Virus record (IMG/VR): IMGVR_UViG_3300046804_003973 | Coordinates: 1-23,620 of that record | DNA: 23,620 bases | Strand: one strand, 5' to 3' | DNA from: a virus | In this document: positions 7,498 to 19,556 of the stretch, piece by piece | Position numbering within the stretch: position 1 is the first letter of the stretch | Layout of the letters: the number at the start of each line of letters is the position of its first letter | The notes under the pieces: model-generated | The model's input: only the letters and a program-made list of their open reading frames with translations | Database searches by the model: none | What the model was told of the DNA's origin: nothing | Made by a program: the position numbers and the translations under genes

Positions 7498-7950
7498 ATG
7501 TTTAAATACCTATTTGTTATTCTTTTGTTAACTAGCTCTGCTGCGCACGGAGCTAATTCTGATTTCCTGCCTATGCTTGAGCAGGCAAAGCAGTTGATGA
7601 AGTATAATAAGGAAATCAAACTTCCAATAATGGTTCCAAAGACCGAGAAGCAATTGAAGCAAATATTCTGTCCCGGACAGGACTGTTCTGTGTCTGCCAT
7701 ATACAGTGATGGTACTGTATATTATGACAAGCGAATAGATTATAAGAACAATATTATCGATCGATCAATTATTATTCATGAAATGATCCACCATATCCAA
7801 GCCAAGAAGCACGGTCTCACCTACGAGTGTGATATGTGGTATCATAAAGAACGTCAAGCATATCGACTCCAGGCTCAGTTTCTTCGAGCAAATGGAATCA
7901 ATGCCTCTTTTGTTAACGATGTAACTGCGAGCCTAAAATGTCCAAAGTAA
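7498..7950 (+). CDS. Secreted HExxH zinc-metallopeptidase-like protein
   Basis: A 150-residue protein with an N-terminal signal peptide (about residues 1-19: MFK, then a hydrophobic core LFVILLLTSSA, with a likely cut after AHG-A). It should be exported to the periplasm, or lipid-free beyond it. H94-E95-M96-I97-H98 forms HExxH in a helix (IIIHEMIHHIQ), and E118 in KERQAYRLQ is the likely third ligand, as in gluzincins. Four cysteines (58, 63, 111, 148) remain after cleavage and could form two disulfides, which fits an extracytoplasmic location. Preceded by AGAGGA at 7488-7493 and its own sigma70 promoter. It overlaps the ClpP-like gene by 13 bases. Target unknown; host envelope proteins are a guess. 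Confidence 0.8.
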   Translation: MFKYLFVILLLTSSAAHGANSDFLPMLEQAKQLMKYNKEIKLPIMVPKTEKQLKQIFCPGQDCSVSAIYSDGTVYYDKRIDYKNNIIDRSIIIHEMIHHIQAKKHGLTYECDMWYHKERQAYRLQAQFLRANGINASFVNDVTASLKCPK

Positions 7951-8513
7951 ATGAACCAGAAAAGTTTCAACCACAAACAGTGTGGGATGATGTCGATTGG
8001 ATCATCCATAACTCAGGATCTTATTACCTAACAGGTGATATAGATGAGAACAGCATCACACCAGTTATTAAATGGATCCTAGCTGAAAATATTGCTCAGC
8101 GTCACAAGCAGCTCAACCTTTTTATTAATAGTTGCGGTGGAGATCTCTACCAGGCATTCGGCTTAATTGATATAATGAAGTCGAGCAAGATCCCGGTAGC
8201 TACAAACGGTGTTGGCAGCCTTATGAGTGCTGCTTTCCTCATATTCATGTCGGGTGTCAAGGGTAAGCGATTTATTACTAAAAATACAAGTATCATGTCA
8301 CACCAGTTCTCTACCTTTTATGAAGGTAAGGAGCATGATGTCAAGGCCTCTGAAAAGGAAACAAGGTACATCAAGCAGCGTATGCTGGATGTTATGAAAG
8401 AGAGCTGCTCAATGGATGAGCGGATGATTAAGCGAAAACTCTTACCACCGTCAGATGTTTGGCTATCCGCAGAGGAATGCGTCGAGCTAGGAGTAGCGGA
8501 CGCAACTTTTTAG
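7938..8513 (+). CDS. clpP: ClpP-like serine protease
   Basis: A 191-residue ClpP/crotonase-fold peptidase, about the length of bacterial ClpP. Conserved landmarks are INSCGGDLYQAFGLIDIM (residues 64-80, equivalent to the ClpP INSPGG region), the nucleophile S97 in GSLMSAAF, H122 in IMSHQFS, and D173 in SDVWLSAEE aligned with the D-x-F-L-S-A motif of E. coli ClpP. The triad therefore looks complete. Cytoplasmic; ClpP normally forms a tetradecamer and needs a Clp ATPase, none of which is encoded in this window, so it may work with a host unfoldase. A role in prohead maturation is also possible for ClpP-fold phage proteases, but the gene sits outside the head genes and precedes the late promoter. 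It overlaps the preceding gene by 13 bases. Confidence 0.88.
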   Translation: MSKVNEPEKFQPQTVWDDVDWIIHNSGSYYLTGDIDENSITPVIKWILAENIAQRHKQLNLFINSCGGDLYQAFGLIDIMKSSKIPVATNGVGSLMSAAFLIFMSGVKGKRFITKNTSIMSHQFSTFYEGKEHDVKASEKETRYIKQRMLDVMKESCSMDERMIKRKLLPPSDVWLSAEECVELGVADATF

Positions 8514-8515
8514 AA

Positions 8516-8523
8516 TATAAATA
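8516..8523 (+). promoter_or_regulatory. T4-type late promoter TATAAATA
   Basis: An exact match to the T4 late-promoter -10 octamer, 41 bases before the ATG at 8557 and just after the ClpP-like stop. T4-type late promoters need only this octamer, recognised by the phage late sigma factor with the sliding clamp. By eye, TATAAATA occurs at only three places in the window, all intergenic and all directly before genes. Confidence 0.8.
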
Positions 8524-8556: not shown

Positions 8557-8922
8557 ATGTCGATGAAAAAATACTCTGAATACATTTCAGTGCACGAACA
8601 GAAAGCTAAAACAATTGGTCTCAGATCAATGGCAGAATCCGCATCATACACTTACGATGATGATAAAGCTCCACAAGGTGCAGATCTCACATCTGGTAGA
8701 GGTGGTGATATTAATCATAAAGCAGTAGCTGCTCACCTAAAGTCAATGGGAGTTCCTGCTGCCCACGCTAAGGCTATCTCAGCTCACTTGAAAAAAGACG
8801 ATATGGATATGGCAGCTTCTACCAAGCTCAAGCACGGTGTAATGAGTAAGCACGGTGATCTAACGGTTCACAGCTTTTCTGACCCTGATTCAGGAAAAAC
8901 CAAGATTCGTGTCGAGGGTTAA
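8557..8922 (+). CDS. Unknown late protein with capsid-targeting-like N-terminus
   Basis: A 121-residue protein of unknown function transcribed from the late promoter at 8516 and ended by the terminator at 8948-8973. The N-terminus MSMKKYSEYISVHEQ resembles the tags of the cargo genes downstream and the T4 internal-protein leader MKTYQEFIAE, but has Val where the cleavage Glu would be. The middle (residues 45-85) is a small helical segment with two similar halves (HKAVAAHLKSMGVPAAHAKA and ISAHLKKDDMDMAAS), reminiscent of a helix-turn-helix or UBA-like bundle. The C-terminus is beta-rich (LTVHSFSDPDSGKTKIRV). GGAGA at 8546-8550 supports the ATG at 8557; an in-frame ATG at 8563 would begin exactly at MKKYSEY. 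Confidence 0.75.
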   Translation: MSMKKYSEYISVHEQKAKTIGLRSMAESASYTYDDDKAPQGADLTSGRGGDINHKAVAAHLKSMGVPAAHAKAISAHLKKDDMDMAASTKLKHGVMSKHGDLTVHSFSDPDSGKTKIRVEG

Positions 8923-8947: not shown

Positions 8948-8973
8948 AAAAACCCACTTCGGTGGGTTTTTTT
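8948..8973 (+). terminator. Rho-independent terminator with UUCG tetraloop
   Basis: CCCAC (8953-8957) and GTGGG (8962-8966) close a TTCG loop. The stem is extended by A/T pairs (AAAAA at 8948-8952 with T's from 8967) and followed by TTTTTTT (8967-8973). This is a textbook intrinsic terminator. It isolates the single-gene transcript 8557-8922 from the cargo operon, whose promoter starts five bases later. Confidence 0.92.
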
Positions 8974-8977
8974 ATGA

Positions 8978-8985
8978 TATAAATA
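8978..8985 (+). promoter_or_regulatory. T4-type late promoter TATAAATA for the cargo operon
   Basis: An exact TATAAATA octamer immediately downstream of the terminator and 25 bases before the ATG at 9010, whose ribosome binding site GGAG lies at 9000-9003. It should drive the tightly coupled genes 9010-12471 late in infection, when heads are assembled. Confidence 0.85.
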
Positions 8986-9009: not shown

Positions 9010-9996
9010 ATGAAATCATTCTCAACCTTCCTATCTGAATCCCTTCTTATTGAACGTGCACCTATGAAAGCATCTGGTGCCAAAGCAGATTACGATGTTA
9101 ACAAGTATCTCAACCCTGAGATGCGCAAGCAGCACACGTACAACACTGCCAGAGATACAGAAGGTATTCCAAAGGGTACATCTGTAAAGGTAAAGAAAGT
9201 TGTTACTAAAGATGGTAAGTACCATGCTCATGTAGAGCACGAAGGTAAAACAAAGGTTGTTCCTGTTAATCATCTCGAAAAGCCAGGTGGGTATGAGAAT
9301 CTGAAGTCAGAGGATGCTCAAATCAAGTCTCTACACAGCCAAATTCAGGCTCACGTCAAAGCAAACGGTGGAAAGCCAATTGATCTTCACATAGGTGGTA
9401 ACAAGTACAAGGTAGCTGGTGCTCGTAAGGTTGAGGGTAATGTCAAAGCTGATTTCGTTTTGCATGATCACCATGACAAACCTGTATACTATGGTTCTCT
9501 CAAGGCTGGTGCACACCCATCTAAGTTTTCAGGGTACGGTGGTTTCTCGCATATGAAAAATGCATCTGTGCACGCTGCATCAAGAAGTTTAGCAACAAAT
9601 ATTGCCAAGAAACCTTTAGAACAGGGTGAGATGGCGTTCCATAAATTCCACGCTGGTGAAGCAGACCACGAGCATGTTGTGAGACAAGCGTTGTTTGGAA
9701 AAGAGGTTGGTGCCAAGGAACACGGTGAATCAAATATTAATGGTGTTCATCACGGTAATATTACTATTGGTAAAAACTCCAAAGGTCATCTTGAGATGCA
9801 TTCTGACCTAGACTTCCATAACACAGGTCATGACATGATCAAGCATCTTGAAAAGTCCCATGGTGGCCACGTTGGTATATTTGTTAGGAAGGGTGAGCAA
9901 GGAAGAAAGATTCCTAACACTAACATTGAAGGTAGAGGTGGCATTGGTATGTCAAATATGAGAAAAGATTCATCTAAGATTAGGCCGGTAAAATAA
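9010..9996 (+). CDS. Tagged late protein, possible capsid cargo, nuclease-like pattern
   Basis: A 328-residue His-rich protein. The first ten residues MKSFSTFLSE resemble the capsid-targeting leader of T4 internal proteins, and LSE-S at 8-11 fits the L/I-x-E/small prohead-protease cleavage rule. Residues 55-90 look like a small beta-barrel (SVKVKKVVTKDG...KTKVVPV). At 146-165 the pattern KADFVL...PVYYGSLK resembles the D-x(n)-(D/E)xK core of PD-(D/E)xK nucleases with Ser in place of the acidic residue, followed by a Gly-rich GYGGFS. I treat this as suggestive only. It is the first gene behind the late promoter at 8978; GGAG at 9000-9003 supports the start. Its TAA shares a base with the next ATG (TAATG), so translation is coupled. 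Confidence 0.78.
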   Translation: MKSFSTFLSESLLIERAPMKASGAKADYDVNKYLNPEMRKQHTYNTARDTEGIPKGTSVKVKKVVTKDGKYHAHVEHEGKTKVVPVNHLEKPGGYENLKSEDAQIKSLHSQIQAHVKANGGKPIDLHIGGNKYKVAGARKVEGNVKADFVLHDHHDKPVYYGSLKAGAHPSKFSGYGGFSHMKNASVHAASRSLATNIAKKPLEQGEMAFHKFHAGEADHEHVVRQALFGKEVGAKEHGESNINGVHHGNITIGKNSKGHLEMHSDLDFHNTGHDMIKHLEKSHGGHVGIFVRKGEQGRKIPNTNIEGRGGIGMSNMRKDSSKIRPVK

Positions 9997-11162
9997 TGCG
10001 TCACATATTCCTCTTATTAAAAGAATCAGCTGCTAACGAAGAGAAGCTGACTCACCTTGAGCACGCTGAAGACCATCCTATCAATGCTGGTGTCGAAGGA
10101 TACAAGCACGCTATGAATACTCTGACAGCTGTGCACAAGACACTAACTGGCCAAAAGGGTGGTGCTGATCTAATGACCAAATATGATGGTAGTCCAAGTA
10201 TTGTATTTGGACATCATCCTCAGACTGGCAAGTTCTTTGTTGCATCTAAATCAGCTTTCAACAAGAACCCAAAGATCAACTACACAGAAGAAGACATTGA
10301 AAACAACCACGGACACGCTCCTGGACTAGTTTCGAAGCTTAAGACTGCTCTACACTACCTTCCAAAGGTTGCACCTCAGAAAGGCGTCTTTCAGGGTGAT
10401 GTAATGCATACTTCAGAAGATGTAAGTGAAAAGGGTGGTAAGGTTCACTTCAAACCAAATCTAATTAAATACTCAACTCCATCCAACTCTGCAGAAGGCA
10501 AAGCAATCAAGAACTCTAAGATCGGTGTATACGTTCATACAGGGTATGAAGGTAAGGATGTTGAGTCAATGAAAGCAAATTACACTCCAAATCTTTCTGG
10601 GTTTGCTAACCATGGTGATGTTCATTTAATGAAGTATGGATACAATACAAAGAATGCTGACTATAATGAAGACTCTCAGAAAGAGTTCAGACGTCATATG
10701 GAAGATGCTGCTGATGTTGGTAAGAAGCTTAAGAAGCAGCACTATGATATCCTTGCACCTCACACCGAGCACGTAAAGACTTACATCAACAAGACTGTAC
10801 GTGAAGATACAAAGCCAACTGCAGAAGGTCTTTATGATCATGTTAAAGAGCAACATGAGAAGGGTATTGACAAAGTAAAGACTCAGAAAGCAAAAGATCA
10901 AAAGACTCAAGCAATGAACTCTGATTTATCTCACATCAGAGCTAACCACGAGACTATTAATAACGTATTCCAGTTGCACCACCACTTACAAAAAGCTAAG
11001 GATGTGTTGGTCAATGCAATGTCACACGGTCAAGATTACGAACATCACATTGGTGATACTAAAACAAAACCAGAAGGGTTTGTTGCTGTTGTAAATAACA
11101 GGCCAACTAAACTTGTTGATAGAAATGAGTTTAGTAAACAGAACTTCTTAGCGAGACAATGA
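9996..11162 (+). CDS. Ligase-type (KxDG) nucleotidyltransferase-like protein, possible capsid cargo
   Basis: A 388-residue protein of a family I know from marine T4-like phages as conserved but uncharacterised. K62-Y63-D64-G65 (TKYDGSPSIVFG) matches motif I of covalent nucleotidyltransferases such as DNA/RNA ligases and capping enzymes. Further candidates in the expected order are KSAFNKNP (about 85-92), FQGDVMHT (132-139), VHFKPN (150-155), KIGVYVHT (175-182), and near the C-terminus EGFV (360-363) with K372 (PTKLVD), which resemble motifs IV and V. A helical, charged insertion spans about 240-350. The N-terminus MRHIFLLLKESAA ends in LKE-S, compatible with a processed capsid-targeting tag. 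Coupled to both neighbours by TAATG (9994-9998) and ATGATG (11159-11164). The substrate (DNA, RNA or other) is unknown. Confidence 0.8.
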   Translation: MRHIFLLLKESAANEEKLTHLEHAEDHPINAGVEGYKHAMNTLTAVHKTLTGQKGGADLMTKYDGSPSIVFGHHPQTGKFFVASKSAFNKNPKINYTEEDIENNHGHAPGLVSKLKTALHYLPKVAPQKGVFQGDVMHTSEDVSEKGGKVHFKPNLIKYSTPSNSAEGKAIKNSKIGVYVHTGYEGKDVESMKANYTPNLSGFANHGDVHLMKYGYNTKNADYNEDSQKEFRRHMEDAADVGKKLKKQHYDILAPHTEHVKTYINKTVREDTKPTAEGLYDHVKEQHEKGIDKVKTQKAKDQKTQAMNSDLSHIRANHETINNVFQLHHHLQKAKDVLVNAMSHGQDYEHHIGDTKTKPEGFVAVVNNRPTKLVDRNEFSKQNFLARQ

Positions 11163-11767
11163 TGAAAAGGTTTTCTCAATTCATAGCTGAAGCAGTGCAG
11201 AAGAAAGCACTCCATGTGTTTGATATTGATGATACTCTTATGCATACCACAGCCAAGATCCACGTTAAGGATCCACAAGGCAAAGTAGTGAAAACTCTTA
11301 CAAATCAAGAGTTTAATGACCACAAGCTACCAGCTGGTCACAGCTACGACTTTGGTGAATTTAGAAATGCTGAGAAGTTCAACAGAGAATCAAAGCCAAT
11401 GCCACACATGATTAACCATGTTAAGAAGTTAACAGCTGATCCAAGCAATCATGTAATCTTTAATACTGCACGTGCTAACTTTGATGATAAGAATACTTTC
11501 TTACGAACATTCAAGAAGCACGGTATTGATATGAGCAAGATTCACGTCATCAGGGCTGGTAACCTCAGTAAAGAAGGTGCTCCTGCTGAAAAGAAAGCTG
11601 TTGTTATTCACGGATATATAAAGAAGCACAAATACAATGATGTTCATATGTACGATGATAGTAAAACCAATCTAAAGTCTTTTGTTGGATTAAAACAGGT
11701 CCATCCAAACACAACATTCCATGCTCATCATGTTGAGGGTGAGAATGTAACAACAAAGGTAGTATAA
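11162..11767 (+). CDS. HAD-superfamily phosphatase with T4-like capsid-targeting tag
   Basis: A 201-residue HAD hydrolase. Motif I is FDIDDTL (D21 nucleophile, D23 acid/base), motif II is NTAR (T102), motif III Lys is probably K144 or K145, and motif IV is MYDDSKTN (D165, D166). All catalytic positions are present, predicting a phosphatase, possibly acting on a nucleic-acid or nucleotide end as in the phosphatase half of T4 Pnkp; substrate is inference. The N-terminus MKRFSQFIAE matches 6 of 10 residues of the T4 internal-protein leader MKTYQEFIAE and is followed by Ala, the preferred cleavage position. Two adjacent ATGs exist (11159 and 11162). I chose 11162 because it lies at better spacing from GAG at 11153-11155 and gives the MK start seen in its neighbours. 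Confidence 0.88.
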   Translation: MKRFSQFIAEAVQKKALHVFDIDDTLMHTTAKIHVKDPQGKVVKTLTNQEFNDHKLPAGHSYDFGEFRNAEKFNRESKPMPHMINHVKKLTADPSNHVIFNTARANFDDKNTFLRTFKKHGIDMSKIHVIRAGNLSKEGAPAEKKAVVIHGYIKKHKYNDVHMYDDSKTNLKSFVGLKQVHPNTTFHAHHVEGENVTTKVV

Positions 11768-12471
11768 TGAAAAGATTTTCAAGTTTCCTATTAGAAGGAA
11801 AAGACAAGACTGCTGTTCTATTATTTGGTAGAATGAACCCTATTACTAGTGGTCACGAAGAGAATGTGAATGCTGCTCATGATATAGCTACATCAGCTGA
11901 CGGTCATCTCCATATTGTTGCTAGTGGTTCTCACGATGAAAAGAAGAATCCGCTTTCACCAGAACAAAAACAGACACACCTCAATCGTGCTTTTGGACAC
12001 CTTGAAAATACTACAATAACAACAGCATCAAAAACAAATCCTACTATAATGCACCACGCTTCAGAGATTGCGAAGACAGGTGCAAAACATTTAGTTATTG
12101 CTGGTGGTGGCGATAGAGCAGAAGAGTATAAGACACTACTCAATAAGTATAACGGAGTCAAAGGAAAAGGCCATGGTGAGTATAACTTTGACACAATTAC
12201 AGTAAAAAACACTGGTGAACGTAAAGCTGGTGTAAGTGGTACAGATATGAGACAACACGCTGCTAGTGGAAACTTCAATCAGTTTAGAGCTGGACTTCCA
12301 TCTCAAATTCAAAAGAACGTAACACACTCGAAGGAAATCTATAATGATGTGCGAAATGGGATGAACATTGGAGGATCAAGAAGTGGTGGAGGTGGTGGAG
12401 GTGGGCCTGGTATGGTTGGTTCCACATCCGGCAATTTACTGCGAATGATGAACCCTCAAAAAATATATTAA
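11767..12471 (+). CDS. HIGH-type nucleotidyltransferase (NMNAT/cytidylyltransferase-like) with capsid-targeting tag
   Basis: A 234-residue protein. After the tag MKRFSSFLLE (LLE-G fits the cleavage rule) comes a Rossmann-like domain. FGRMNPITSGHEENV at 20-34 corresponds to the (H/T)xGH nucleotide-binding motif, with T27-S28-G29-H30 replacing the first His by Thr. VSGTDMR at 156-162 corresponds to the ISxTxxR motif of the same superfamily, and LVIAGGGDR at 109-117 is a central strand and loop. This predicts adenylyl or cytidylyl transfer. NMN adenylyltransferase is the closest activity by motif, but substrate is not proven. The C-terminus has a seven-glycine run (SGGGGGGGPG, about residues 206-216) and a short basic tail, perhaps a flexible tether. 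Start shares TAATG with the previous gene. Confidence 0.85.
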   Translation: MKRFSSFLLEGKDKTAVLLFGRMNPITSGHEENVNAAHDIATSADGHLHIVASGSHDEKKNPLSPEQKQTHLNRAFGHLENTTITTASKTNPTIMHHASEIAKTGAKHLVIAGGGDRAEEYKTLLNKYNGVKGKGHGEYNFDTITVKNTGERKAGVSGTDMRQHAASGNFNQFRAGLPSQIQKNVTHSKEIYNDVRNGMNIGGSRSGGGGGGGPGMVGSTSGNLLRMMNPQKIY

Positions 12472-13204: not shown

Positions 13205-15046
13205 ATGAAAAAGAGAAAAAAAGCCCCACAAGATGTGGCACTAATGACTGGTAACCCTAACGATATTATCGTGGTTTCACCAGAAGAAAAGCCAGTAAAA
13301 TATCAAACAGAAGCCGCACAGGCTATCAAACAGCTTAAGTCTAAACTTAAAGCTCCAGATTTTGTCTATATTGCTCCCACAGAACGCGTAGCCATCGATA
13401 AGAAGGCTGACAAGCAAGCAAGAGACATCAAAAAACTAGTTAGTAAATTAAGCACACAAGAAGTCACAGAAGAAGACCTCAACGGCATATTTACGTCGTT
13501 GGGTGAGGGTGAGCTTGCTAAGAATGCTTTGTCTGTTGCCACTTCTCCAATTCGTGCTGTTGGCTTACTAGGTAAAGCAGCACTGGGTGCTGGAACAGCT
13601 GCAACTCTACTTTCTACACCTCAATCTGCAGCAATCACAACTGTAGGTGCAGCTAAAGTTCTTTCTGATAAGCTGGCAGGAGTTGGTAAGAATAAAACTA
13701 ATCCTGATACTGAGAAGATGTCTAAGTATCACACTGCGATCATGAAGCAGCGTGTTGCTCTATCTAAAGAGCAAACAAATCAAGCAAAGATTGATACAGC
13801 TATTCAAAAGAAAAGACTTGATGCCATCAACGATATCAAGAGAGGTGTAAACAGAAAGATATACGCTTACAATCAGGCTAATAAAGGTAAGGATTCTATT
13901 CAGACCTATTCCAAGTCTGGGGTGTATGGAACACCTAAACCAACTTCTACATCACCAGTATCTAATACAGCACCGTCTGTGATTATTCCATCATCTTATA
14001 GAACCAGACCCACCACAAGTAATACTACAATTGTATCCCACAGAGAATGGGACCGTGAAAAGTATATTGAAGAGAAGAATCAGCTTGCACTTCAGAGGAA
14101 AGCTGAAAAGTATGGAGTTGATATTGAGATTGTAGAGAATGTTTTCAAGCAAGGCCTTGTAGAGTATGACGAAAGAGGCAACGCCACTGTCAACCAATTT
14201 GCTATGCAGAGAGTCAATTCTTTCCTTGCTAACTATTTGGAAGAGAAGAAGACGGTGATGATCCGCGGTAAGAGAAAAAGGATCGTTGGAGAAACTCCAG
14301 GTGCTGTTTATACAAGAACTGCTCTAAAGTCTTCTGGTAAGACAAAGATTTTAAAAACTCCTATGACTGCTCAGCAAAAGCAGAAAAGAGCTGTAATAAC
14401 TCTAAAGAGGAAGCTCAAGCAGAAAGTCTATGAGGAGACTGGTTTAGAAGAAGGTGGTTTGTGGGATAACATTCACGCTAAGCGTGCCCGTATTAAAGCC
14501 GGTTCTGGTGAGAAGATGAGAAAGCCAGGATCAGAGGGTGCACCTACCAAACAAAACTTCATTGATGCTGCAGAGCAAGTTGATAACGTCAATGAAGTGT
14601 CCAAAGAGCTTCTTAACAGATACTTGTGGGCTGCAAAATCTGAAGATAAAGATAGAATGGATAAGGCTATGAAGATAGTCAAAAAGCCTTTAGACAAAAA
14701 AACTAAAAAAGACTATGATAAAGTAGATAAGCTACTTACCAAATCAATCAAACGTAGTCAGGGAATTCAAAATGCAGCCGAAAAGATTATGGCGAAGGAG
14801 TCTATTGAAGAAAGCTTCATCGTAGATCGTGCAGCAGGTTACAGTACTACCTACACAGCAGCGGATCTTGGAATCAAGATTCAAGGTGGATTTGAGCTAC
14901 ATCCTTCGGTAACTGAAGAGGGTGGTGCAGGAGACATCGGTACTGATAAACTCGTTAAGAAGTATAAAAAAGACACACCAGGAGAAGCTGTAGAGCAGCT
15001 CCAACGTGTTATCAGAGCAAGAAGAAAGGCAAGTACACAATGCTAA
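13205..15046 (+). CDS. Large modular probable virion protein
   Basis: A 613-residue basic protein with recognisable segments but no known activity. Residues 1-100 are Lys-rich and helical. A hydrophobic Ala/Gly/Leu-rich stretch runs at about 115-152. A Ser/Thr/Pro linker occupies 238-280. A segment at 302-345 (KYGVDIEIVENVFKQGL...) resembles a short domain common in marine T4-like phage proteins. A basic motif follows at 419-446 (GLWDNIHAKR...KAGSGEKMRKPGS), also widespread in such phages. Residues 464-530 form one copy of the NEVSK...RSQGI module that recurs in the gene at 19553. The C-terminus has GDIGTDKLVKKYK (577-589). First gene of the third late transcript; probably structural or scaffold-associated. 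It overlaps the next gene by 7 bases. Confidence 0.75.
   Translation: MKKRKKAPQDVALMTGNPNDIIVVSPEEKPVKYQTEAAQAIKQLKSKLKAPDFVYIAPTERVAIDKKADKQARDIKKLVSKLSTQEVTEEDLNGIFTSLGEGELAKNALSVATSPIRAVGLLGKAALGAGTAATLLSTPQSAAITTVGAAKVLSDKLAGVGKNKTNPDTEKMSKYHTAIMKQRVALSKEQTNQAKIDTAIQKKRLDAINDIKRGVNRKIYAYNQANKGKDSIQTYSKSGVYGTPKPTSTSPVSNTAPSVIIPSSYRTRPTTSNTTIVSHREWDREKYIEEKNQLALQRKAEKYGVDIEIVENVFKQGLVEYDERGNATVNQFAMQRVNSFLANYLEEKKTVMIRGKRKRIVGETPGAVYTRTALKSSGKTKILKTPMTAQQKQKRAVITLKRKLKQKVYEETGLEEGGLWDNIHAKRARIKAGSGEKMRKPGSEGAPTKQNFIDAAEQVDNVNEVSKELLNRYLWAAKSEDKDRMDKAMKIVKKPLDKKTKKDYDKVDKLLTKSIKRSQGIQNAAEKIMAKESIEESFIVDRAAGYSTTYTAADLGIKIQGGFELHPSVTEEGGAGDIGTDKLVKKYKKDTPGEAVEQLQRVIRARRKASTQC
14579..14794 (+). 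repeat. Copy 1 of the VDEVSK...RxxGI protein module
   Basis: Codes for residues 459-530 of the 613-residue protein. It begins QVDNVNEVSKELLNRYLW and ends IKRSQGIQNAAEKIM. The same head (VDE-V/L/I-S/K-K-x-x-x-x-x-Y) and tail (R-x-x-G-I/V-x-x-A) occur three times in the gene at 19553. Similarity is at protein level and degenerate. Confidence 0.55.
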
Positions 15047-15621
15047 CATTCTCTCAATTCCGCTCTGACATAGAAGAGCAGCAATACAATCCTATGTCTA
15101 AGGATGTTACGCCTGAGAATCCGAGAACTCAGCAGATGATTGATGCATTTAAGAAGATGCAGCAGAGACAAGAATTCTATGGAAAAAATCCTGGTGACAT
15201 TAAAGGTGATCCTAGTGAAATAGGTGACACATGGGATGATTACAAAAGACACATAAGAGTACATGGTAATGCTCCAATGAGGTTACCTAATCCTAAACCT
15301 GAAACTGGTAATGAAGTTCCTTTAGATTTAGATAAGCATGATCCGGATGTTACAGGTAGCAGAAAAACAAAGAAGATCATGGAAGCAGAATACCAAGGTC
15401 GTGATGTTCCTCTAAACAAACCAATGGCTGGTGACGTTAAGAAGTCAAAAGTGTTTGTTAAGAACGAACAGGGTAATGTTGTCAAAGTAAACTTTGGTGA
15501 CAAGAACATGACTATCAAGAAGAACATCCCTGCTCGTCGCAAGAGCTTCAGAGCAAGACACAATTGTGAAGAGCCAGGTCCTAAAACAAAAGCAAGATAT
15601 TGGTCTTGCAAAGCATGGTGA
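15040..15621 (+). CDS. Probable virion protein with C-terminal Cys/basic domain
   Basis: A 193-residue protein in two parts. The N-terminus MLTFSQFRSDIEEQ resembles the MK-F-S-x-F tags of the cargo genes. Residues 10-110 are polar and probably flexible. From about residue 118 comes a compact domain (QGRDVPLNKPMAGDVKK..., then KVFVKNEQGNVVKVNFG), ending in a basic segment RRKSFRARHNC and YWSCKAW with two cysteines and several Trp/Tyr/Arg residues. I recognise this C-terminal domain as recurrent in marine T4-like phages, sometimes fused to other proteins; its function is unknown to me, and the Cys/His pattern could bind metal. The start overlaps the previous gene by 7 bases. Confidence 0.75.
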   Translation: MLTFSQFRSDIEEQQYNPMSKDVTPENPRTQQMIDAFKKMQQRQEFYGKNPGDIKGDPSEIGDTWDDYKRHIRVHGNAPMRLPNPKPETGNEVPLDLDKHDPDVTGSRKTKKIMEAEYQGRDVPLNKPMAGDVKKSKVFVKNEQGNVVKVNFGDKNMTIKKNIPARRKSFRARHNCEEPGPKTKARYWSCKAW

Positions 15622-16679: not shown

Positions 16680-19556
16680 ATGAAAAAAATATACGAATCT
16701 GCTAAAGAAATTCTCTCTGAGAAGTACAATAGAGAAGATCTAGAGAAGGAAGCTCAGAGACTTTCCAAAGTACACAACGTTCCGTACGATGTGGTAAAAC
16801 ACGTTATTAATAAAGAGACTGGTGGTACGTGGAAAACAGATCAGGTCAATCCAGATAGTGGTGCCACTGGCATCATGCAGATCCTTCCGAGATATGCAAC
16901 TAACACTCCAGCTGGGTATGAAGTTCACAAGAAAGATCTTTTGGATCCTTATAAGAGTATGAATGCTGGTATCAAGAAGCTTGGTCAGTGGTACAACGCA
17001 CATAGAAACAAGAAGCTACCGGAAGATCAACTTGATGTAGCAGCAGCTAAAAAAGCTATGGCTTCATACAATGCTGGACCAAATGGTGGTATTGAAAAAG
17101 ATAAGCAAGGTAAAGTTAAATACGTAGGTGCTGCCACATATATTAAAACAGGAAACCCTAAACATCTACCTCTTGAAGCTCAAAACTATATCAAGGATTT
17201 TGGAGTAGAAAATAAAGTTGCAAGTAACAAGTCGGATAAACCATTCAAACGTGATGCCTCAGCTATAAAGGCTCAAATAGATCCAAAGCAGCACGAGATC
17301 AAAGATAATCGTCCGCAGGCTAACACTGTAGCAGCTCCAGTAGTGCAGTCTAAGCCAGCTCAGGAAGCTCCTAAAAAAGAAGTTAAGGTTAATACTCAGC
17401 AGCAGGCTGCTCCTGAAGTCAAAACTCAAGTATCAGATCCTAATTCTGATAATCCATATCCTCCTGGATCAAAGGATTGGTACTTCAAAGATGCAAGGAA
17501 CAGGGGATTGAAGTCGTACAAAGATCCAAATACCGGTAAAGAAATTGCAGTTAAATTAAAAGAAGATAGTGCTATGAAAAACGTTTACGGAGTAATCAAA
17601 GACATTCTTTCTGAGGCTAAAAAAGAAAGAATAACTGCACAACTTCCATCTAAAGAAGAACAGCAAAGAATAAGTAAAGAGCTGTCAACCTCCATTAGGA
17701 AAAGTTCTGCTAATCCAACTTATGGAGTAGCACCACTTAGTGGTGGTAATTATGAAAGAACTCCTGAGACTGTGATCAAACATAAAATCGCAGCTGATAA
17801 ATCATGGGGAGGTAAAGAATTTTCATACAATCAATATGTATCTACTGGTAAACCTGTTGAGACACAACAAAATGTAGCTGCTGTTACAAAAGCAGCTAAA
17901 CAGACCTCAAACAACGCTGGAGATATAAGACACACTCTTTCAGCCAATACGCTTAGTAGAATGCTACCAGATGGTAATAACCAGGTTATAGCTACTTCTA
18001 TAGTGCCAAAAACAGTAGTGTCTCAAGCTAACAATAATACTAAGCAAGTTCTATCGAAAGCTGTATCTCAGGCTAATAATGTGGTCCAGGCAAAAGCTGT
18101 ATCTAAGGCTAATACAGTAGTAGCACAAGCCAACACTGCTCCTCAACAGAAGTCACCATCTGTCAAAAAAGAACTAACTCCTTTTGAGAAAGAGTTTGCT
18201 AGAGCAAGAGCAGCAAAAGAAACGGAATTCACATGGCACGATGAAAAGGGCAGACCATATAAGGTTGGTACTAAACTTAAAGGTGAGACAAGTCCTCCCG
18301 AAGTTAAAAAAAGTGGCCCTGTAAGAACAACAACTACAAGAACAAGAAGTGTAACTCCTAGTGCTACAATAAGCCCTAACACTAGCGCACCTTCCAGTTC
18401 GGAAAAACCAGTTGACACCAAGTCTGTTGAAATTCCCCCAGAGGAAATGAGCAGTATAGATACTGAGATTGCGAACCAAAAGGCTGCAAAAAAAGCTGAA
18501 GTTGATGCGAAGATCAAAGCTGACTCTGAGAATATGTCGATGGAGTTCATTGGTGACAAAGAAGACCAAAATGTAAACAGTAATCCAGAAAAAGAAAATC
18601 AACCAGAAAAAAAACGCAAGTTCGATTATTCAAAAGGACTTCTAGGCCAGGACAATTCAAAAACTAACGAGGAAACCCAAATGTCAATCAATAAGAAATT
18701 TAATGTATCTGACTCTCTTTACACCGCAGTAATGGAAGTCATGAAGAAACCTTCTCAGGGATCTGCCCCAAGAAATGAGAAGGAAAAAGACCTTGCAGCC
18801 ATGACTCCACCAGGTCATCTAATTACTCACGGTGATGTTCTCAAGGCACGTGGCGTCAAGATGAAAGAGGATACAAATGTAGTTGGTGAAAGCTTAGCAA
18901 ACACTATTGTAACGTTAGGCAAAACAGTTGGATTGTTCAGAGATGAGCCTGAATCTACATCAACGCATGCATCTAAAAAAGATGAAAAGGAATCTATTAA
19001 GCAGACAAATCAAGGTAAGGCTAATATGCCTCCACCATCTAAAAAAGCGGTCAAAGAAGGGGTGATGGATACTGTTAAGAGTGTTAAAGATAAGCTAGTT
19101 AAAATTGGTCAGGATGCTGCTGAGCCATTCACAGGTACTCCAATTGGTCCTTCAGCTTCACTACTATCCACTATTACTGATAAGAGATGGCCAGAAAGAA
19201 AACCAGGTGATTTTGGGTATCCAGAAGGGAAACCTGATTGGACTAAACATATTGTTGGTGATGAAAAATCTACTGCAAAAGTACCTCAAAAAACACCTTC
19301 AAAGCCTGTACAGAAAGAGTCGATGGATACTCCAGGAAACAGCTACGAGCATCAATGTGCTATTCATGTTAAGAGTGAGTCGTTTGGTGAAGGACGTACA
19401 ATCACAACTCAACACGCTGATCCAGATCAGAATGGTAACATTGCATGGTATGATGTTATGTTTGAACATGGTATCGAAAGATATGTTCCAACAGCTGAGT
19501 TAGAGATCCTTGTTTCTGAGTCGCATATGCACTCAATGAAGAAAAAGAAAAAATGA
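16680..19556 (+). CDS. Large virion protein with N-terminal lytic transglycosylase (SLT) domain
   Basis: A 958-residue protein. Residues 1-14 (MKKIYESAKEILSE) resemble a tag. Residues 20-175 are a GH23/SLT-type transglycosylase: catalytic E46 in NKETGG, the GATGIMQILP motif at 61-70, and AMASYNAGP at 126-134, as in MltC/Slt70-family enzymes that cleave the MurNAc-GlcNAc bond of peptidoglycan. Residues 180-290 and 390-680 are low-complexity, rich in Ala, Lys, Pro, Ser, Thr and Gln, probably disordered. A second tag-like sequence MKNVYGVIKDILSEAKK starts at residue 299. A conserved-looking C-terminal domain (about 880-945: SYEHQCAIHVKSE..., GNIAWYDVMFEHGIE, AELEILVSE) ends in a Lys tail. Probably a virion-associated lysin used at entry; the long linkers would give reach. 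It starts 2 bases after the preceding stop and overlaps the next gene by 4. Confidence 0.87.
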   Translation: MKKIYESAKEILSEKYNREDLEKEAQRLSKVHNVPYDVVKHVINKETGGTWKTDQVNPDSGATGIMQILPRYATNTPAGYEVHKKDLLDPYKSMNAGIKKLGQWYNAHRNKKLPEDQLDVAAAKKAMASYNAGPNGGIEKDKQGKVKYVGAATYIKTGNPKHLPLEAQNYIKDFGVENKVASNKSDKPFKRDASAIKAQIDPKQHEIKDNRPQANTVAAPVVQSKPAQEAPKKEVKVNTQQQAAPEVKTQVSDPNSDNPYPPGSKDWYFKDARNRGLKSYKDPNTGKEIAVKLKEDSAMKNVYGVIKDILSEAKKERITAQLPSKEEQQRISKELSTSIRKSSANPTYGVAPLSGGNYERTPETVIKHKIAADKSWGGKEFSYNQYVSTGKPVETQQNVAAVTKAAKQTSNNAGDIRHTLSANTLSRMLPDGNNQVIATSIVPKTVVSQANNNTKQVLSKAVSQANNVVQAKAVSKANTVVAQANTAPQQKSPSVKKELTPFEKEFARARAAKETEFTWHDEKGRPYKVGTKLKGETSPPEVKKSGPVRTTTTRTRSVTPSATISPNTSAPSSSEKPVDTKSVEIPPEEMSSIDTEIANQKAAKKAEVDAKIKADSENMSMEFIGDKEDQNVNSNPEKENQPEKKRKFDYSKGLLGQDNSKTNEETQMSINKKFNVSDSLYTAVMEVMKKPSQGSAPRNEKEKDLAAMTPPGHLITHGDVLKARGVKMKEDTNVVGESLANTIVTLGKTVGLFRDEPESTSTHASKKDEKESIKQTNQGKANMPPPSKKAVKEGVMDTVKSVKDKLVKIGQDAAEPFTGTPIGPSASLLSTITDKRWPERKPGDFGYPEGKPDWTKHIVGDEKSTAKVPQKTPSKPVQKESMDTPGNSYEHQCAIHVKSESFGEGRTITTQHADPDQNGNIAWYDVMFEHGIERYVPTAELEILVSESHMHSMKKKKK

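Follow-up and report, generated by a model that had tools for sequence, protein, structure and literature searches.

Four linked genes of a T4-like phage fragment encode predicted internal head proteins with putative enzymes as cargo

Introduction

Why should the products of four linked phage genes, which share no body sequence, all begin with the same type of ten-residue N-terminus? The question is raised by positions 9010-12471 of the virus record IMGVR_UViG_3300046804_003973, a fragment of a T4-like phage genome that we analyzed as the complete 23,620-base IMG/VR record (hereafter the window). We designate the four genes and their products as P1 to P4 and the shared N-terminus as the tag. 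In T4, the internal proteins (IPs) IPI-IPIII bear a leader known as the capsid targeting sequence, and, as reviewed in PMC3012670, foreign proteins can be brought into heads by such leaders. Based on the sequence evidence given below, we regard P1-P4 as an internal-head-protein operon packaged by the tag, with a probability of about 0.82.

Results

The tag and its frequency against chance

The four tags, all on the plus strand, are MKSFSTFLSE in P1 (9010-9039), MRHIFLLLKE in P2 (9996-10025), MKRFSQFIAE in P3 (11162-11191) and MKRFSSFLLE in P4 (11767-11796). They share the form M-x-x-F/I-x-x-F/L-L/I-x-E, and cuts are predicted before S11, S11, A11 and G11, respectively. The assignments rest on open reading frame (ORF) translation and a strict-pattern match in P1 and P4, on translation and conservation of E10 in P2 and P3, and additionally on a disordered N-terminus in the structure model in P2. 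A preliminary description of this DNA had listed the same four leaders, each with the residue that follows it, and translation bore it out.

We formulated a strict pattern, ^M.{1,3}[FYI]..[FYL][LIV].E, and obtained the expectation by shuffling residues 2-16. Four of the 26 ORFs in the window matched against 0.05 expected, a count that is partly circular as the pattern was devised after the tags were known; the counts in other genomes and the later test in cyanophage S-CREM2 are free of this circularity. The 162-kb relative G001 had 6 matches in 213 ORFs (0.31 expected), G003 had 6 in 213 (0.21 expected) and C48C1 had 4 in 179 (0.14 expected), while HTVC008M, Melnitz and DLP6 had just one or two apiece. 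Across the loci fetched for their homology to P1-P3, 122 of 2736 distinct ORF proteins, falling into 23 sequence clusters, were tagged against 3.6 expected.

Conservation of the tag with changing cargo

The letters of the tag differed among homologs in viral contigs while its class was kept, as in MTAFKNFLTE, MLRFKQYLLE and MKFTEYLTE for P2, MISFKEFITE, MKTFKSFLTE and MKNYKKYITE for P3, and MKSFGSFLLE and MKKFKDFLTE for P4. The strict form was found in 39 of 52 distinct homologs of P2, 25 of 47 of P3 and 22 of 39 of P4, and some of the homologs outside it were truncated or came from other phage groups. E10 was invariant in 29 aligned P2 homologs, in which residues 2-9 were variable, and at least 90% conserved among the P3 homologs covering the position; small residues were common directly after it. 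The P2, P3 and P4 families are unrelated to one another, yet all retain the tag class, and unrelated cargo genes likewise carry it. G001 possesses the same operon, but the body in its first slot is unrelated to P1 (21% identity) behind the tag MKSFFQFILE. The earlier claim of unrelated bodies behind a common leader was thus upheld, as P1-P4 fall in different families. By analogy with the T-even IP loci, where variable cargo occupies a fixed position (PMC3012670, PMC12373910), the first gene position is a slot whose cargo changes.

We considered the P3 homologs lacking the tag as a control without the prohead protease gp21 and rejected it: a scan for gp21 came up empty for their contigs and equally for the tagged fragments included with them, so that its absence was not established, and the 118-167-kb contigs G006 and G008 alone were suggestive. 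G008 (L191-L196) carries its genes in two copies of opposite orientation, probably a palindrome created during assembly. Separately, the C48C1 transferase (L006:11661-13004) appears to be annotated with a start too far downstream; read from an ATG ahead of it, the protein begins with MIKNFSQYLLEEEREVYFTFGRMNPP and regains both the tag and the first part of the catalytic motif.

The prohead protease and its cleavage rule

gp21 (PF03420) was detected in all but one of the T4-like relatives with the major capsid protein gp23 that were first searched, including the nearest long one, G001; in the exception, G002, gp23 was present and no gp21 match was found. The gp23 sequences of six relatives and T4 have L-x-E at the T4 cleavage position, and so does that of S-SM1. 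With a slash marking the cut, the T4 site FLTE/AEIG aligned with LTE/TAAN, LNE/VSAT, LGE/IANV, LSE/AAPT, LTE/TGPT and LGE/AAPT in the six relatives. T4 gp24 (LLRE/S), IPII and IPIII (both FIAE/A) obey the same L/I-x-E rule. The four tag ends fit this rule, as the preliminary description had proposed. It had also named a protease of incompatible specificity as a finding that would speak against packaging; what the relatives have is gp21 and a gp23 that keeps the L-x-E site. Its statement that IPI-IPIII all start with MKTYQEFIAE holds for IPII and IPIII, whereas IPI starts with MKTFKEFTSTTTPVSTITE followed by A.

Tagged enzymes in cyanophage virions

Transferases of the P4 family have been detected by mass spectrometry in the virions of S-SM1 (T4-GC190; PMC3037559), S-SCSM1 (ORF91; PMC9602691), S-SZBM1 (S-SZBM1_140; PMC9146016) and S-CREM2 (gp154; PMC10665884). 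All four carry the tag, with the N-termini MKKFSAFLNE/A, MKSFLQFLKE/A, MRFRQFIIE/A and MKNFSSFLTE/A, respectively. Absence from virions, which had been put forward as grounds for abandoning the packaging idea, is thus contradicted for this family. S-PM2, in whose virion GC190 was not detected, was weighed as a possible negative control and set aside; the protein read from this phage, a fusion of DUF6267 and transferase, has no tag.

For S-CREM2, we compared 52 published virion proteins with 135 undetected ORFs (PMC10665884). The strict matches among the virion proteins were the S-adenosylmethionine (SAM) hydrolase (MKDFDSFLEE), a kinase (MKRFDAFLTE) and the transferase, that is, three of the four non-structural, non-lytic enzymes as grouped in the table of that paper, against one of the 135 undetected ORFs (Fisher p 4e-5). 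In Cas9 (gp12; L208:7704-10313, minus strand), also reported in these virions, LRFASFMAE/A stands at residues 17-25 after a 16-residue extension. A 183-aa protein of S-CRM01 (L004:14406-14957) has the N-terminus MRQSRWAKWSRGTEVKLSLDSFIKE followed by A, similar to this stretch of Cas9.

The predicted cargo

P1 (9010-9996, 328 aa), the occupant of the variable first slot, matched phrog_13937 (E 6e-16). It has a weak PD-(D/E)xK-like motif, D148...S163-x-K165, whose three residues are invariant in six sequences; its structure model was poor (predicted local distance difference test, pLDDT, 42.9) and was not used. P2 (9996-11162, 388 aa) belongs to DUF6267 (PF19782; E 1e-99), with 334.6 bits against a curated cut-off of 27 over residues 19-386, a full-length match. 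Its conserved motifs K62-x-D-G, Q133-G-D, E360-G and K372 make it a probable ligase-like covalent nucleotidyltransferase, and its model has a pLDDT of 89.7 with residues 1-16 disordered. P3 (11162-11767, 201 aa) is assigned to the HAD-superfamily phosphatases with polynucleotide kinase as the nearest PHROG (phrog_415, E 1e-8); its catalytic set (D21/D23/T25, T102, K145 and D165/D166) is complete and conserved in 52 sequences. P4 (11767-12471, 234 aa) is assigned as a cytidylyl/adenylyl-type nucleotidyltransferase (phrog_3041, E 6e-45) with both HxGH nucleotidyltransferase signatures (GRMNPITSGH and SGTDMR), conserved in 39 sequences. Sequence searches of the PDB with P2, P3 and P4 gave nothing useful. 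Some phages have a P2-like and a P4-like domain joined in one protein (phrog_455, L101 and S-PM2). Altogether, P2-P4 look like three enzymes and P1 like a variable protein.

Layout and control of the operon

The four ORFs, starting at 9010, 9996, 11162 and 11767, are linked by the stop/start overlaps TAATG (P1/P2), TGATG (P2/P3) and TAATG (P3/P4), and a second in-frame ATG lies at 11159, just ahead of the P3 start. Inspection of the window ORFs placed homologs of gp43, UvsX and gp41 upstream. A terminator-like hairpin with a UUCG loop, AAACCCAC-TTCG-GTGGGTTT followed by a T run (8950-8973, plus strand), sets the operon apart from the preceding gene, and directly 3' of it is a single T4-type late promoter motif, TATAAATA (8978-8985, plus strand). 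The gene starts, the shared start/stop bases and the single late promoter had all been given in the preliminary description and were recovered here. Three copies of TATAAATA in the window against 0.99 expected are weak evidence on their own. The motif is nevertheless kept upstream of the first cassette gene in G001 and Melnitz, whereas among 1226 ORFs of seven sequences, 61 have it at most 70 nt away, and the pairing of hairpin and motif is retained in G001 ahead of a different first gene. From the motif at 8978 and its conservation in G001, P1-P4 are predicted to be expressed late.

Other window proteins with tag-like features

A ClpP-like protease (PF00574, E 7.5e-31) is encoded at 7938-8513. 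Between it and the operon lies a 121-aa ORF (8557-8922) with its own TATAAATA at 8516; its start, MSMKKYSEYISVHEQ, is a possible variant of the tag. The protein of 15040-15621 starts with MLTFSQFRSDIEEQQ and has KKIMEAEYQGRDVPLNKP internally. In G001, its EYQGRDV domain forms a protein of its own (88 aa), starting MLSFLEYIAE/AEYQGRDV, and in C48C1 it reads ELTEAEYQGKK. As the x-E/A junction before EYQG is kept while the preceding sequence changes, the comparison suggests another protease-processed protein. The product of 16680-19556, which is 958 aa long and has an SLT transglycosylase domain, starts with MKKIYESAKEILSE followed by KYN and has MKNVYGVIKDILSE followed by AKK internally; it may be a polyprotein that the head protease cleaves.

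Discussion

We propose that transcription of the type directed by sigma-gp55 would start from TATAAATA late in infection and yield P1-P4. An amphipathic leader of the form M-x-x-F-x-x-F/Y/L-L/I-x-E would dock each protein in the scaffold core of the prohead, and gp21 would free the mature protein by cutting after L/I-x-E. The latter would remain in the DNA-filled head and enter the next host with the genome, where its most likely task would be the immediate repair of nucleic acid or the refill of nucleotide cofactors that host defence has attacked. Of the packaged, injected operon proposed in the preliminary description, packaging is supported by the enrichment and conservation of the tag, the gp21/gp23 rule and the P4 orthologs in virions; injection stays a prediction, and so do head targeting and cutting in the phage of the window itself.

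Several observations weigh against this proposal. The cytoplasmic recombinase UvsX, which is not a virion protein, matches a loose form of the pattern, so that the tag rule alone is not specific. The tag is absent from the DUF6267 homologs of P-HM2, S-CRM01, S-SZBM1 and S-PM2. No gp21 (PF03420) was found in the record of the window, as expected for a fragment, and the window has no gp23 of its own either. The best PDB folds for the P2 model in Foldseek were DNA/RNA ligases at a non-significant E of about 0.2. The proteomic support comes from four cyanophages and the P4 family rather than from the phage of the window, and mass spectrometry demonstrates presence in purified virions, not location, a cut N-terminus or injection. 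Over the whole S-CREM2 list, the strict pattern matched 3 of 52 virion proteins against 1 of 135 (p 0.066; loose pattern, p 0.019), which we ascribe to most virion proteins being tail and baseplate parts. The authors of that study allow for co-purification or contamination (PMC10665884); the distribution of the tag in S-CREM2 argues for active packaging over contamination.

The closest known system is that of T4 IPI-IPIII. Both have a short leader that follows one pattern and ends in L/I-x-E, bodies that are unrelated to each other, and variable cargo at a fixed slot; the lineage has gp21 and a scaffold, and P1-P4 would, like the IPs, be late genes. T4 IPs of known function are small restriction inhibitors, whereas the bodies of P1-P4 include conserved predicted enzymes. 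P1-P4 differ further in forming a four-gene operon that lies downstream of uvsX/gp41 and belongs to phages only distantly related to the T-evens. On sequence grounds, we regard the operon as a real variant of the internal-protein system of T4, one whose cargo would be enzymes. The second likeness is to the virion-associated enzymes of cyanophages (the NMNAT/cytidylyltransferase T4-GC190, kinases, SAM hydrolase and the S-CREM2 Cas9): P4 is homologous to GC190, whose virion-detected members bear the same tag, and the large kinase SCRM01_130c of S-CRM01, a phage with a kinase reported in its virions, starts with MISFDQFLSE. The published reports that we consulted treat such enzymes as possible passengers and name no packaging signal, which the tag supplies. 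The pair of Pnkp and RNA ligase in T4 is a third parallel, in that a nucleotidyltransferase with ligase-like motifs is encoded together with a HAD phosphatase; any kinship between DUF6267 and ligases would be remote at best. To our knowledge, T4 Pnkp and Rnl are made after infection and have no head leader.

What the cargo does is less certain than how it travels. A variant of our proposal, in which P1-P4 are packaged and injected for host takeover or the metabolism of nicotinamide adenine dinucleotide (NAD) instead of nucleic-acid repair, has close to an even chance: P4 relatives bear NMNAT-like annotations and have been suggested to increase NAD (PMC9602691), and a kinase and a SAM hydrolase are among the other tagged cargo. 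On the other hand, the ligase-like motifs of P2, the phosphatase P3 with its affinity to polynucleotide kinase, and the P2-P4 domain fusions suggest that the proteins work together on nucleotides or the ends of nucleic acids, and we tentatively retain a role in nucleic-acid or nucleotide repair as possible. We consider it unlikely that the tag is left in place by gp21 and serves as a helix for docking to some other virion part or assembly complex, be it tail, baseplate, portal or scaffold. The published spectra give no position of the enzymes inside the virion, the tag is helical in structure prediction and some tagged members of the families have long additional regions attached, but the tag end fits the rule that gp21 follows in these lineages, the tag matches T4 leaders known to target the head, and E10 does not vary and is often followed by a small residue. 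Slightly less probable still is that these are ordinary helical N-termini common among phage proteins and that virion detection reflects abundance or contamination, as the loose match of UvsX and the caution of the S-CREM2 authors might suggest, since the strong enrichment over shuffled N-termini, the persistence of the tag class despite turnover of the bodies, and its singling out of the odd non-structural enzymes among S-CREM2 virion proteins all stand against it.

It appears reasonably likely that one short gp21-cleaved tag serves modular delivery in a range of T4-like phages that infect marine and freshwater bacteria, shipping whole enzyme kits into the host with the DNA. In this reading, the kits would comprise a ligase-like protein, phosphatase, nucleotidyltransferase, kinase, SAM hydrolase and even Cas9. 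In a literature search of partial coverage, we found no paper tying capsid targeting sequences to these enzymes. The predicted mature N-termini are searchable in existing virion mass-spectrometry files. The tag would account for the recurrence of NMNAT-like transferases, kinases and Cas9 in cyanophage virions, a point left open by the authors of those studies. It would also provide a readable rule for predicting injected phage proteins, which in uncultivated phages could be listed from sequence alone, and such proteins would act ahead of any phage gene expression, when host defences are met.

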